A stretch of 64,000 bases of DNA, taken from NCBI GenBank assembly GCA_030829955.1, contig JAURNY010000010.1, forward strand, positions 1-64,000, in the 5' to 3' direction. A model generated the notes under the pieces. It saw only the letters and a program-made list of their open reading frames with translations, was not told where the DNA came from and made no database searches. Shown here one piece after another: positions 14,655 to 53,116 of the stretch. This DNA is from Gammaproteobacteria bacterium (GTDB lineage: Bacteria; Pseudomonadota; Gammaproteobacteria; Eutrophobiales; Eutrophobiaceae). The number at the start of each line of letters is the position of its first letter. The stretch's first letter is position 1. The position numbers were made by a program, and so were the translations under genes.

Positions 14655-15165
14655 CCGACAACATGTTATTCTAATCCATGGCCTATGGATGAATGGAATG
14701 GATGTGTTGCTATTGCAACATCGTTTTAATCAACAAGATTATTCTACCTCCCTTTTTTTTATCATTCGATAAACAATTCTGTTATTTGAGTATTTAACTA
14801 ATCTTAATCATGAGAGTTTTTCAATTGTCTGTCACAGTCTAGATGGTTTAGTGCCCCGGTAAATGCTGGCAAGACATCAGCTTGATAGATTACATAGCGT
14901 GGTTATGCTCGGCATACCTAATCAAACCAGTGCTGCCGCGGCAACATTAAAACAATGGTCGGGAGGTAAACTAATTCTCGGTGATAATTTGAAGGGCGGT
15001 CTATGTGGCCCGATATTCCGAAACCGAATGAAGGCACAGTTACAGTAGCATAGACACGTCTTACAGGCATGAAGGATCACATCATCCTGCATGTCATGCA
15101 CGTTGGTTTATTGTTGTTATGCCAATACCTTTGAGCAAACATGTCACTTTATCGAGAATTTATCG
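14655..15165 (+). pseudogene. Decayed alpha/beta hydrolase (lipase-like) gene
   Basis: Fragments in successive frames match one esterase/lipase-like protein in the correct order. First comes VILIHGLWMNGMDVLLLQHR (from about 14666), the beta-strand/oxyanion-hole start. An 8-T run near 14753-14760 is a likely frameshift, then stops follow. Next is a degraded nucleophile elbow, CHSLDGLV near 14831, in place of GHSLGG. The longest piece, 14863-15048, reads LHSVVMLGIPNQTSAA then GGKLILGDNLKGGL. Finally a His-box-like DHIILHVMHVGLLL (about 15075) and TCHFIENL (about 15142) appear. Several stops and at least one frameshift mean no functional protein. The 616-base gap between nadA and yebC holds nothing else I can identify. 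Confidence 0.8.
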
Positions 15166-35855: not shown

Positions 35856-36302
35856 ATGCAAATTTCTGAATTCCTTAAAATAGAGTGCGTATTTTCTGCT
35901 ATGGACTGTCACAGCAAAAAAGACGCGTTGGATACACTTGCGAAAATCATTGCTGACTCCGATAGCGCAACTTCCCAGACGGAAGTTTATGATTGTTTAT
36001 TGGCCAGAGAACGTCTGGGTAGTACCGGGTTAGGTAAAGGTGTTGCTATTCCTCATGGGCGTCTAAAACAGGGCAAGAAAATTCTGTCAGCTTTTATTCA
36101 GCTTGAAGAAGCAGTTGACTATGATGCGATTGATAAACAGCCGGTTGATTTACTGTTTGCTTTGATTGTGCCTGAAGAGTCAACGGAAGAACATTTGCAA
36201 ATTTTATCGGCATTGGCAAAAAAATTTAGTCAGGAATCAGCATTGAAGGCATTACGATCAAATCAACCAATAGAAGAAATTTACAAACTCCTTACGGAAT
36301 AA
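35856..36302 (+). CDS. ptsN: PTS nitrogen-regulatory EIIA (EIIA-Ntr)
   Basis: Phosphoryl acceptor of the regulatory PTS. The 148-residue EIIA-2 fold carries the phosphorylated His in GVAIPHGR (about residue 68). In other bacteria it modulates potassium transport and sigma-54-linked functions. hprK follows after 3 bases. Confidence 0.95.
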   Translation: MQISEFLKIECVFSAMDCHSKKDALDTLAKIIADSDSATSQTEVYDCLLARERLGSTGLGKGVAIPHGRLKQGKKILSAFIQLEEAVDYDAIDKQPVDLLFALIVPEESTEEHLQILSALAKKFSQESALKALRSNQPIEEIYKLLTE

Positions 36303-36305
36303 ATC

Positions 36306-37316
36306 ATGGTCGGTATTACTAGCCAGATTAGTATTGAAGACCTGTTTAATATACATAAGGATAAACTCGATCTTCAATGGGTGGCCGGACAGCAGGGCGC
36401 CAAACATGTAATCATTCGCGAAGAAGCATCTGAAATAAACAAAAAAGGGAAGCGAAAAAAGAAGACTATTAAAAAAACCGATAAGGAACCTAAAAGCTTT
36501 TCATTAGTTGGTCATCTAAATCTAATCCACCCTCATCAGATACAGGTTATTGGTGAAGTTGAAGTGCGTTATCTTGAAGGATTAAGAAATATCTCTATGC
36601 AGGATGCTGTCGTTCAACTTTTTAAAAGCAAACCAGCGTGCGTCATTGTTGCTGATGACTTGGAGCCTCCCACATTACTAAAACGAAAAAGTAATGAACA
36701 TAGCATTCCGTTATTTGCCTGTAGCATGAATAGTGACAAGTTGTCAGATGTGTTGCATTATTTTTTAACCAATCTATTTGCTGACATGTTGACTTTGCAT
36801 GGAGTATACATGGAGGTCATGACTATTGGCGTATTGATTACAGGTCCAAGTGGAATCGGCAAAAGTGAATTGGCACTGGAATTAATTTCACGTGGGCATC
36901 GATTAATCGCAGACGATGCACCGCTTTTTTCCAAGGTTGCCCCCGATATTATTAATGGTACTTGCCCGCAGACTTTACAGGATTTTCTTGAAGTTCGCGG
37001 TCTGGGTATTATTAACGTGCGCGAGTTGTTCGGCGACAGTGCTATAAAGAAAAATAAATACTTGAGATTGATTGTCAATTTACAGCCAATGGATGAAAAG
37101 AATCTTTTATCTCTAGATAGACTGGAAGGTAGCTACAGTATGCGAAAAGTATTGGAAATGGATGTGCCTGAAATTACCTTGCCTGTTGCACCGGGTCGAA
37201 ATCTATCCATTATGATGGAATGTGCAGCACGTAATCATATATTGCGAGAAGCAGGTTATAACGCAGCTGAAATATTTGTCAGTCGACAAAAAGATATAAT
37301 CGATAGCGAACACTAA
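36306..37316 (+). CDS. hprK: HPr kinase/phosphorylase
   Basis: Phosphorylates and dephosphorylates HPr on Ser46. The Walker A motif GPSGIGKSELALELISRGH lies at about 179-197, followed by LIADDAP and the family signature LEVRGLGIINVRELFG. The 336-residue length is slightly above average because of a very basic Lys-rich insert near residues 45-63 before the SFSLVGHLNLIHP segment. The insert is in frame and the rest is complete, so the gene looks functional. The target HPr downstream retains Ser46. It ends 4 bases before rapZ. Confidence 0.93.
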   Translation: MVGITSQISIEDLFNIHKDKLDLQWVAGQQGAKHVIIREEASEINKKGKRKKKTIKKTDKEPKSFSLVGHLNLIHPHQIQVIGEVEVRYLEGLRNISMQDAVVQLFKSKPACVIVADDLEPPTLLKRKSNEHSIPLFACSMNSDKLSDVLHYFLTNLFADMLTLHGVYMEVMTIGVLITGPSGIGKSELALELISRGHRLIADDAPLFSKVAPDIINGTCPQTLQDFLEVRGLGIINVRELFGDSAIKKNKYLRLIVNLQPMDEKNLLSLDRLEGSYSMRKVLEMDVPEITLPVAPGRNLSIMMECAARNHILREAGYNAAEIFVSRQKDIIDSEH

Positions 37317-37320
37317 TATA

Positions 37321-38190
37321 ATGAATCAACAGCAACGACGCTTAATTATTGTGACCGGATTATCAGGTGCAGGTAAGACGGTCGTTTTACATTCATTGGA
37401 AGATTATTCTTTCTATACTATTGATAACCTGCCTATCAGTTTGCTCGATACTTTTATTGCTCAGTTGATTAGCCCAGAGAGCAAATATCCACAAGATATT
37501 GCTATAGGGATAGATGCAAGAAATAGTCCGGATGAATTATTTCAATTACCGGACATACTTCACAGTTATCGAAAGGAATCGATCAATATAGAGCTAGTAT
37601 TTATTGATGCAAGTAACGAGGTATTGGTTAAGCGTTTTAGTGAAACCAGACGTAAACATCCGTTAACATCAAAAGATTATTCTCTAAATGACGCCATAAA
37701 GCATGAGCGTAAGATTATGAATCTCTTTGCGGAGATAGCTTACTTTAAAATTGATACCAGTCGCATGTTGCTGCATGAATTGCGTGATTTGGTTCGTGAG
37801 CGGATTGCTAATCATGCTATAGCAAGCTTGTCGCTACAAATCATGTCTTTTGGTTTTAAGCATGGAATTCCCGCGGATGCCGATTTTGTATATGATTTAC
37901 GTTGTTTGCCTAATCCATTTTGGGAAAAAAAATTGCGTCATTTCTCTGGTAAGGATCAACCTGTAATTGATTTTCTATCTTCTCAGGAAAGTGTGAAAAA
38001 AATGCAGGAAGATTTATTAGAATTTTTTAAGTATTGGATTACACAATTTGAAAAAGATAATAGAAGTTATTTGAGTATTGCGCTTGGTTGTACCGGTGGT
38101 CATCATCGTTCCGTTTATATGGCAGAACAACTTGCATCAGCATTTATATATGAGGATAAACAGGTCATTATCCGTCATCGGGATATTTAA
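37321..38190 (+). CDS. rapZ: RNase adapter / nucleotide-binding protein RapZ
   Basis: Family best known from E. coli RapZ, which guides RNase E to a small RNA controlling glmS and senses glucosamine-6-phosphate. Walker A GLSGAGKT is at about 14-21, and C-terminal ALGCTGGHHRSVYMAEQLA is the family hallmark. The 289-residue length is standard. It ends 1 base before the EIIA relic. Confidence 0.96.
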   Translation: MNQQQRRLIIVTGLSGAGKTVVLHSLEDYSFYTIDNLPISLLDTFIAQLISPESKYPQDIAIGIDARNSPDELFQLPDILHSYRKESINIELVFIDASNEVLVKRFSETRRKHPLTSKDYSLNDAIKHERKIMNLFAEIAYFKIDTSRMLLHELRDLVRERIANHAIASLSLQIMSFGFKHGIPADADFVYDLRCLPNPFWEKKLRHFSGKDQPVIDFLSSQESVKKMQEDLLEFFKYWITQFEKDNRSYLSIALGCTGGHHRSVYMAEQLASAFIYEDKQVIIRHRDI

Positions 38191-38191
38191 T

Positions 38192-38455
38192 ATGCGGCTT
38201 GGTTTATTAATAATCACTAATGATAGCATTGGTGTTAGCTTGTTTTGTGCTGCAACTTTCATGATGAGTGATAGTCCGCCTGAAGCGAAACTTGTCACGA
38301 TTGGTCGTGGTCGCAATATAGATGAGATTAAGCAACAAACTAATGTCATTGTTGTTCCCTGGCTTAATTTGTAAATGTTGATCCGCGTATTGAATTATCT
38401 GGATCTCAATTTAAATGATATGGCGAAAAAAGCTGGCATAACAATTAATCAATAA
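38192..38455 (+). pseudogene. Decayed PTS EIIA-Man (fructose/mannose family) gene
   Basis: The reading frame from ATG 38192 gives 60 residues beginning MRLGLLIITNDSIGVSLFCAA, the shape of an EIIA-Man N-terminus, but the phosphorylatable His of the usual THGDLG motif is Asn (ITNDSIG). The frame stops at 38372-38374, then continues in frame from 38375 as MLIRVLNYLDLNLNDMAKKAG, the usual C-terminal helix (normally after GVNLPML). The central portion, including the second active-site region, is missing. Intact relatives are about 130 residues; only about 87 remain. It lies exactly where an intact EIIA-Man gene sits between rapZ and HPr in related bacteria. Confidence 0.78.
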
Positions 38456-38469
38456 CAGAGTTACATGTC

Positions 38470-38739
38470 ATGCAAACAAAAACACTAACAATTGTTAATA
38501 AACTGGGGCTACATGCCCGCGCTGCTGCCAAATTTGTACAAACGGCTTCAGCGTTTGAAGCAGAGATTACAATTAATTCGGGTCATCTTGAAGTCAGTGG
38601 TAAAAGTATTATGGGTATTATGATGCTGGCAGCGGGCAAGGGTAAGGAGATTAGTGTCTCAGCCGTTGGCAAGGATGAAAAAGAAGCAATGAAGGCAATT
38701 GAGGACTTAATCAATGATAAATTTGGTGAGGACGAATGA
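38470..38739 (+). CDS. ptsH: Phosphocarrier protein HPr (NPr-type)
   Basis: An 89-residue phosphocarrier with active-site His15 in LGLHARAA and regulatory Ser46 in GKSIMGIMML, the site of HprK. It passes phosphate from enzyme I to EIIA-Ntr. The start MQTKTLTIVNKLG follows a weak ribosome binding site. The stop overlaps the ptsI start (ATGA). Confidence 0.96.
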   Translation: MQTKTLTIVNKLGLHARAAAKFVQTASAFEAEITINSGHLEVSGKSIMGIMMLAAGKGKEISVSAVGKDEKEAMKAIEDLINDKFGEDE

Positions 38740-40475
38740 CAATCCTCTTACAAGGTGTCAATGTCTCGCGCGGTATAGCGATTGGTCATGCGCACCTGTT
38801 ACAAAATGATCAGATAGATGTTCGAGAATACTCAATTCATAGTTCTCATATTGATGAAGAAATACAACGTCTCAATGATGCAATAGGCGATGCGCGTCAA
38901 CAGTTGCGCGCAATAAGAGATCATATTCCATCATCTACATCGGCAGATATTGCTGCCTTTATCGATACACATTTATTGATGATGGAAGATATTGCAATCA
39001 CGGAAGAACCAAAGCGAATTATTAAAGAACGTTTATGTAATGCAGAGTGGGCACTGAAGCTGCAACGCGATGCTGTAGTCAATGTTTTTGAGGAAATGGC
39101 CGACGCCTATCTCAGTACTCGTCGTGATGATGTGAATCATGTTGTTAATCGTATTCTTCGCGTCATGTTAAATCAGAAGCCGCTTGCACATGAGATGCCT
39201 GATGATTCACTAAATGGAAGAATCATTCTAGCAGAAGACCTGACTCCTGCGGATACCGTCATGATGCAGCACAATGGAATTCTTGCTTTTGCTACAGAGT
39301 TTGGTGGCCCTACTTCCCACACTGCTATTCTGGCAAGAAGTCTTGGTATTCCTGCAATAGTCGGTATTCAAAATGCAAGAAAATATATAAAAAATGATGA
39401 CCTGATCATTATTGATGGCACTAATGGCATTGTCCTAATTGATCCGGATGAATGCATTCAATCACATTATGAAAAACGTCAGCGCGAGGATAGGCGTTAT
39501 ATCAATTCTTTGGGTCGACTTAAGAATACAACCACCAAAACAAGTGATGGTATCAGCATAAACCTGATGGCGAATATAGAACTGCCAAGTGATTTTGATA
39601 CTGTTCGTGATGTCGGTGCGTCGGGTGTTGGCTTATATCGTACCGAATTTTTGTATATGAACCGCGAAGCTTTGCCAGACGAGGAAGAACATTTCAATAC
39701 CTATATGGATGTGATGAAGTCGCTTGATGGTTTACCGCTTACTATTCGCACACTGGATCTTGGAGCGGATAAACAGGTTGATGGCATTACCAAAAATATA
39801 GGACAGCAACGCACTAACCCGGCACTGGGATTGCGAGCAGTAAGACTTTGCTTAAGAGAGCCTGGTCTTTTCCGACCACAACTGCGCGCAATTATACGAG
39901 CGTCTGCATATGGGCCGATAAGAATAATGATTCCTATGTTGACTAATCTTCAGGAAATTCAACAGGTGATGACTATTATTGAAGAGATTCAACTAGAACT
40001 TGAAAAAAAAGAAATCGGTTTTGATAAAGATATACAAATTGGTGGCATGGTAGAGGTGCCGGCATCAGCAGTGTGTGCAGATATTTTTGCAAAAAAACTC
40101 GACTTTCTTTCTATAGGTACTAACGATTTAATTCAATATACCATGGCCATCGACCGTGTTAATGACGAAGTAAATTATCTTTACGATCCTTTTCATCCAT
40201 CCGTGTTAAGACTGATTCATATGACGATAAACGCAGGAAAAAAAGCAAAGATTCCGGTAGCCATGTGTGGTGAAATGGCAGGTGATCCAAACAGTACAAG
40301 ATTATTGTTAGGGTTGGGCTTGCGTGAGTTCAGTGTGCATTCAGCGAGCCTGTTGGAGATCAAAAAGATCATTATTGATAGTGATGTTGAAGAAGCAACC
40401 AGGCTGGCTAAACGTGCCTTAAAGGCCAATAATGGTGTTGATGTAATTGAATTATTCAGAAATAGTTCTGATTAA
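38736..40475 (+). CDS. ptsI: PTS enzyme I
   Basis: Phosphoenolpyruvate-protein phosphotransferase, 579 residues, without the N-terminal GAF domain of PtsP. The phosphorylated His lies in GGPTSHTAILARSLGIPA (about 180-197), and the C-terminal PEP-binding barrel has IGGMVEVPASA and the MCGEMAGD segment. No sugar-specific EIIB or EIIC gene is in the window, so this chain looks purely regulatory. Confidence 0.95.
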   Translation: MTILLQGVNVSRGIAIGHAHLLQNDQIDVREYSIHSSHIDEEIQRLNDAIGDARQQLRAIRDHIPSSTSADIAAFIDTHLLMMEDIAITEEPKRIIKERLCNAEWALKLQRDAVVNVFEEMADAYLSTRRDDVNHVVNRILRVMLNQKPLAHEMPDDSLNGRIILAEDLTPADTVMMQHNGILAFATEFGGPTSHTAILARSLGIPAIVGIQNARKYIKNDDLIIIDGTNGIVLIDPDECIQSHYEKRQREDRRYINSLGRLKNTTTKTSDGISINLMANIELPSDFDTVRDVGASGVGLYRTEFLYMNREALPDEEEHFNTYMDVMKSLDGLPLTIRTLDLGADKQVDGITKNIGQQRTNPALGLRAVRLCLREPGLFRPQLRAIIRASAYGPIRIMIPMLTNLQEIQQVMTIIEEIQLELEKKEIGFDKDIQIGGMVEVPASAVCADIFAKKLDFLSIGTNDLIQYTMAIDRVNDEVNYLYDPFHPSVLRLIHMTINAGKKAKIPVAMCGEMAGDPNSTRLLLGLGLREFSVHSASLLEIKKIIIDSDVEEATRLAKRALKANNGVDVIELFRNSSD

Positions 40476-52770: not shown

Positions 52771-53116
52771 CTGATGAATATATATCATCTGTACCAGATG
52801 ATGCGAAGGTATATTTGATCGCCCAAATAATGGCGACACTATTAGCATCCGTTTTAAAGTATAATTCAGATTAACAAATAGGGGTGTTGCTCCTGCGGGC
52901 ATAGATAACGAAAATACCGGGCATCATCATTTATTGATTGATGCAGTTGAGTTGCCGGCTAATAATGTGGTTAAACATTTTGGTGGTGTTCAGACTTAAA
53001 TGATGCTTGAACTGACACCGGGCAAGCATACTTTACAATTAATCTTGGGAAACTATCTGCACATTACGCATAACCCGCCTGTTATTTCTGGCAGAATTAC
53101 AATTTACGTAAAGTAA
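52771..53116 (+). pseudogene. Broken DUF4399 family gene
   Basis: Fragments reassemble a DUF4399 protein in order. VPDDAKVYLIA (from about 52795) is followed by a single-base loss near 52830, after which NNGDTISIRFKV continues in the next frame. Then come a TAA, GVAPAGIDNENTGHHHLLID, a second TAA (at about 52999), and LELTPGKHTLQLILGNY ending ISGRITIYVK before the stop at 53114-53116. Function of the family is unknown; members are usually exported. With one frameshift and two stops the gene cannot make the full protein. The interval 52738-53126 holds nothing else. Confidence 0.85.

Follow-up and report, generated by a model that had tools for sequence, protein, structure and literature searches.

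Known EIIA-Man proteins that act outside sugar permeases offer the nearest points of comparison for the locus described here. In Brucella melitensis, PtsM is an EIIA-Man-like protein that is phosphorylated via EI-Ntr and NPr and that binds SucA (PMC2937029). It is a stand-alone EIIA-Man without a PTS permease, as was the ancestral gene type of the lineage under study; however, PtsM is intact and sits in another operon layout, whereas the frame found here is broken. The IIA-Man genes of proteobacterial rpoN clusters are regarded as the remnant of an ancestral cluster that presumably shed its IIB, IIC and IID (PMC2405797), and in the present genome this last EIIA-Man piece has been lost too. One close known system has the same PTS gene set, with no EIIB or EIIC and with an EIIA-Man gene number adjoining that of ptsH, but there EIIA-Man is listed at working length. 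The stand-alone EIIA-Man gene of such operons is also named ptsM or ptsN-Man.

The window, i.e. the whole stretch of 64,000 nucleotides that was analysed, carries an operon in the order ptsN, hprK, rapZ, relic, ptsH, ptsI and mgtE, in which all genes but the relic are intact (Table 1). The relic frame (38192-38455, forward strand) runs for 60 codons to an in-frame TAA and, beyond it, for another 26 codons to a closing TAA, in an interval bounded by the end of rapZ at 38190 and the start of ptsH at 38470. We are highly confident that this frame is the pseudogene remnant of the stand-alone EIIA-Man gene of the operon.

Table 1. Coordinates of the relic, its lesions and the surrounding PTS genes in the window
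Feature	Position	Strand	Remarks
ptsN (EIIA-Ntr)	35856..36302	+	Intact; single PF00359 match in the genome
hprK	36306..37316	+	Intact, with both Pfam domains
rapZ	37321..38190	+	Intact
EIIA-Man relic, first 60 codons	38192..38371	+	Open; Asn at codon 10; 35-codon centre gone after codon 45
Codon 10, AAT (Asn) in place of the phospho-accepting His10	38219..38221	+	From the alignment with intact relatives
Junction of the 35-codon deletion that removed TDLYGSTP	38326..38327	+	Exact position depends on the alignment
In-frame TAA, codon 61	38372..38374	+	Intact relatives have Ser (28/30) or Pro (2/30) here
26 post-stop codons of the EIIA-Man frame and final TAA	38375..38455	+	Begins with ATG; lacks 6 codons that are FSGGMD in G001
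ptsH (HPr)	38470..38739	+	Intact; no other HPr in the genome; motifs GLHARAA and GKSIMG
ptsI (EI)	38736..40475	+	Intact; the only PF05524 (EI N-domain) match of the genome

The homology to EIIA-Man is visible only with a profile of relatives: a profile of six intact ones recognises the read-through relic at 62.8 bits (E 4.8e-18) and, by themselves, the first 60 amino acids at 34.3 bits (E 3e-09), whereas Pfam gave no match at all to either version at E 10 and NCBIfam returned no EIIA-Man family match. The relic lacks what marks a member of the family, namely the match to PF03610 (EIIA-Man), the phospho-His after the first strand and the TDLYGSTP segment. Its congener G001, which alone represents the genus besides this genome in the comparison set and is the only congener with a readable locus, encodes an intact EIIA-Man of 133 aa at the same site between rapZ and ptsH (PF03610, 56.1 bits), and intact orthologues with these flanks occur in others as well. 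The disabling lesions comprise the stop, deletions of 35 and 6 codons and the active-site change. Codon 10 is Asn where 29 of the 30 intact family members have His, and the conserved TDLYGSTP is wholly absent with the deleted centre. Relative to G001 the relic misses 46 codons, of which 35 come from the centre, 6 from close to the end and 5 from the C-terminus, all indels being multiples of three. Of 50 positions at which 10 intact relatives do not vary, it has lost 19 by deletion, changed 8 and kept 23. The first-pass annotation had proposed an EIIA-Man relic at this site, with Asn for the phosphoryl-accepting His, an in-frame stop and a missing centre amid otherwise intact PTS genes; each of these points is borne out by the profile, by the comparison with G001 and 29 other family members, and by the integrity of ptsN, hprK, rapZ, ptsH and ptsI. 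The list of open reading frames contains no intact alternative frame across 38192-38455.

The loss is not confined to this genome. In a family sample of 53 genomes HPr was found in 50, three without an HPr match (G034, G068 and G071) being outside the locus count, and the HPr locus of these 50 contains EIIA-Man in 30, a relic in three (this genome, G000, with G066 and G070) and no detectable trace in 17. On a tree from RapZ, HPr and PtsN, which holds 59 genomes (the 50 and nine others, all nine with EIIA-Man), this distribution amounts to eight separate losses, or seven if nodes with less than 80% support are collapsed and the branches without EIIA-Man in one polytomy are counted as one. As in the window, hprK still stands in front of rapZ in six of the 17 traceless genomes (G016, G018, G021, G023, G028 and G036); there is none between ptsN and rapZ in G011 and G032, and in the rest none was seen in the stretch examined, which is short for some. 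The relics of G066 and G070 resemble the one in the window in having decayed between rapZ and ptsH, and their intervals align with the intact gene of G067, a member of their genus, with z 18.4 and 11.1 over shuffles. They are far more degraded, however, being full of stops, and hprK was not found in the one locus (L102, G066) and is represented by only a 40-residue match in the other (L103, G070). Among the papers listed in PMC on stand-alone EIIA-Man, HprK and PTS gene loss, no title or opening abstract line concerned recurrent EIIA-Man loss, by which we do not claim that such reports are absent.

Several loci in other genomes are noted alongside. G065 (L084, reverse strand) has a full-length open EIIA-Man frame adjoining ptsN and ptsH in which Asp replaces the phospho-His; the frame has a 6-residue insertion and a changed C-terminal motif, and neither hprK nor rapZ turned up in the stretch examined for this locus. 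In seven genomes without EIIA-Man a ptsI match after ptsH is missing from the stretch examined (L049, L051, L056, L058, L059, L060 and L097), and their HPr may be without EI at this locus. G074 (MO_140.B7, L061), of roughly genus-level nearness, was uninformative as an EIIA-Man comparison with its rapZ cut by the contig end, and its only HPr sits in another rapZ-ptsH operon that differs from the first. The presence of two unlike operons carrying ptsN and rapZ (L061 and L108) in this 4.4-Mb bin suggests that G074 is a mixed bin.

How the remaining codons have evolved bears on the age of the inactivation. Synonymous sites are saturated in the codon model (14 neutral units on the window branch), and the omega estimate was therefore set aside in favour of amino-acid branch lengths and position-wise identity. 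The EIIA remnant accumulated 0.87 substitutions per site in the window lineage against 0.22 in G001, while the window branch of the controls measures 0.33 for RapZ, 0.27 for HPr and 0.26 for EI. Measured against the control genes and the remainder of the tree, this is an acceleration of 2.09 (1.23-3.03 in 40 bootstraps). It is unevenly spread: the window branch is 1.26 for the first 60 codons but 0.25 for the 26 post-stop codons, which are unaccelerated (0.32 in G001) and share 19 of 26 residues with G072. Within the first 60 codons the identity to intact relatives is 0.50 at first and 0.79 at second codon positions. When uniform neutral decay was simulated from an intact copy (400 runs, 40-60 mutations, two mutation spectra), the observed second-minus-first excess was reached in 0.3 to 2.2% of the 400 runs at matching identity, and none at those settings showed a contrast between the two parts as strong as the real one. 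The first 60 codons do not look like uniformly neutral sequence, on tests that are post hoc and concern 86 codons of one genome. These simulations, the unaccelerated post-stop codons and the in-frame indels count against the pseudogene reading; we take the pattern to point to a gene that was inactivated recently, after a phase of relaxed evolution in which it still coded. Constraint, or the His itself, would have been lost first while the frame was still coding, and the stop would have come late as part of a general shrinkage of the genome.

The same codon pattern invites readings in which a product persists. The first-pass annotation had suggested that the first 60 codons might still make a short protein, and a 60-aa non-phosphorylatable EIIA-Man-like protein, perhaps with a reinitiated 26-aa piece, could conceivably be made and used, e.g. 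as a binding remnant. The 60 codons are indeed open, all indels are in frame, an ATG directly follows the TAA, second positions are conserved and the C-terminal codons are unaccelerated. However, the TDLYGSTP centre is gone, changes affect 8 of the 31 undeleted positions at which the 10 intact relatives do not vary, and support across species is missing, G001 being intact and G066 and G070 riddled with stops; the short form was found in no other genome. Moreover, a DUF676 relic in the window, which has a frameshift and several stops, displays a similar codon pattern, its second-minus-first difference being 0.21 compared with 0.27 for the whole relic against G001; among 1271 stretches of 60 codons from 51 window orthologues, taken as a control, the 99% quantile is 0.27. 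We give such a short protein, as a binding remnant or otherwise, very little credence, and judged from the codons its retention appears unlikely. It is also quite improbable that phosphotransfer was lost first and a non-phosphorylatable coding protein then lived on for long, with selection on its hydrophobic pattern and C-terminal part and with a truncated form still made, the Asp of G065 representing a parallel early stage.

A function in cis might be argued from the EIIA frame of G001, whose last 4 bases lie within the beginning of ptsH, and from the post-stop frame here, which ends 14 bases before ptsH, as if the remnant were kept for carrying ribosomes or a signal to ptsH by translational coupling or as a leader. 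Yet 17 of the 50 HPr-bearing family genomes manage without an EIIA frame, rapZ or ptsN closely preceding ptsH, and the interval has neither an Rfam match nor a terminator-like site, with promoter-like sites at chance; we hold a coupling or leader role to be extremely improbable, and the idea that the interval acts as an RNA or a promoter was likewise rejected because there is no Rfam match and no excess of promoter-like sites. An assembly error in an intact gene might be entertained for a genome in 32 contigs that could be a metagenome assembly, the more so as a single-base change could yield the stop, but it is implausible that a 35-codon deletion, the His to Asn change and the alteration of seven further invariant sites are all errors, and the chance of this is practically nil.

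The genome as a whole provides a fitting backdrop. It measures 1.89 Mb compared with 3.1 Mb in G001, and the GC content of the window is 41.1% versus 44.5% in the 80 kb that surround the locus in G001. Two further relics lie in the window: that of DUF676 (alpha/beta hydrolase, esterase-like; 14659-15116), with its stops and frameshift, has an intact counterpart of 210 aa in G001, and a DUF4399 relic with in-frame stops (52814-53113) has one of 138 aa. The small genome and the further window relics give the picture of a gene-shedding lineage.

A search of the entire genome with PF03610 at E 10 found no second EIIA-Man, and with a single EIIA-Ntr, HPr and EI the phosphorelay would run only from EI via HPr to EIIA-Ntr. 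Judging from the known families, PEP phosphate would take this route alone, HprK would still act on HPr, and former targets of the EIIA-Man branch would now be outside PTS control. The loss of the branch had been put forward as a specific change in the phosphorelay; the loss itself stands, while its being special to this organism does not, given about eight losses in the family and six genomes that keep hprK next to rapZ as here. The EIIA-Man loss here is ordinary, recurrent gene decay, and its importance is low. The locus nevertheless shows clearly how a regulatory PTS can be deprived of one of its two EIIA end points and yet retain EI, HPr, HprK and EIIA-Ntr, and the repeated loss of the EIIA-Man branch in one family offers a natural comparison for the function of stand-alone EIIA-Man.
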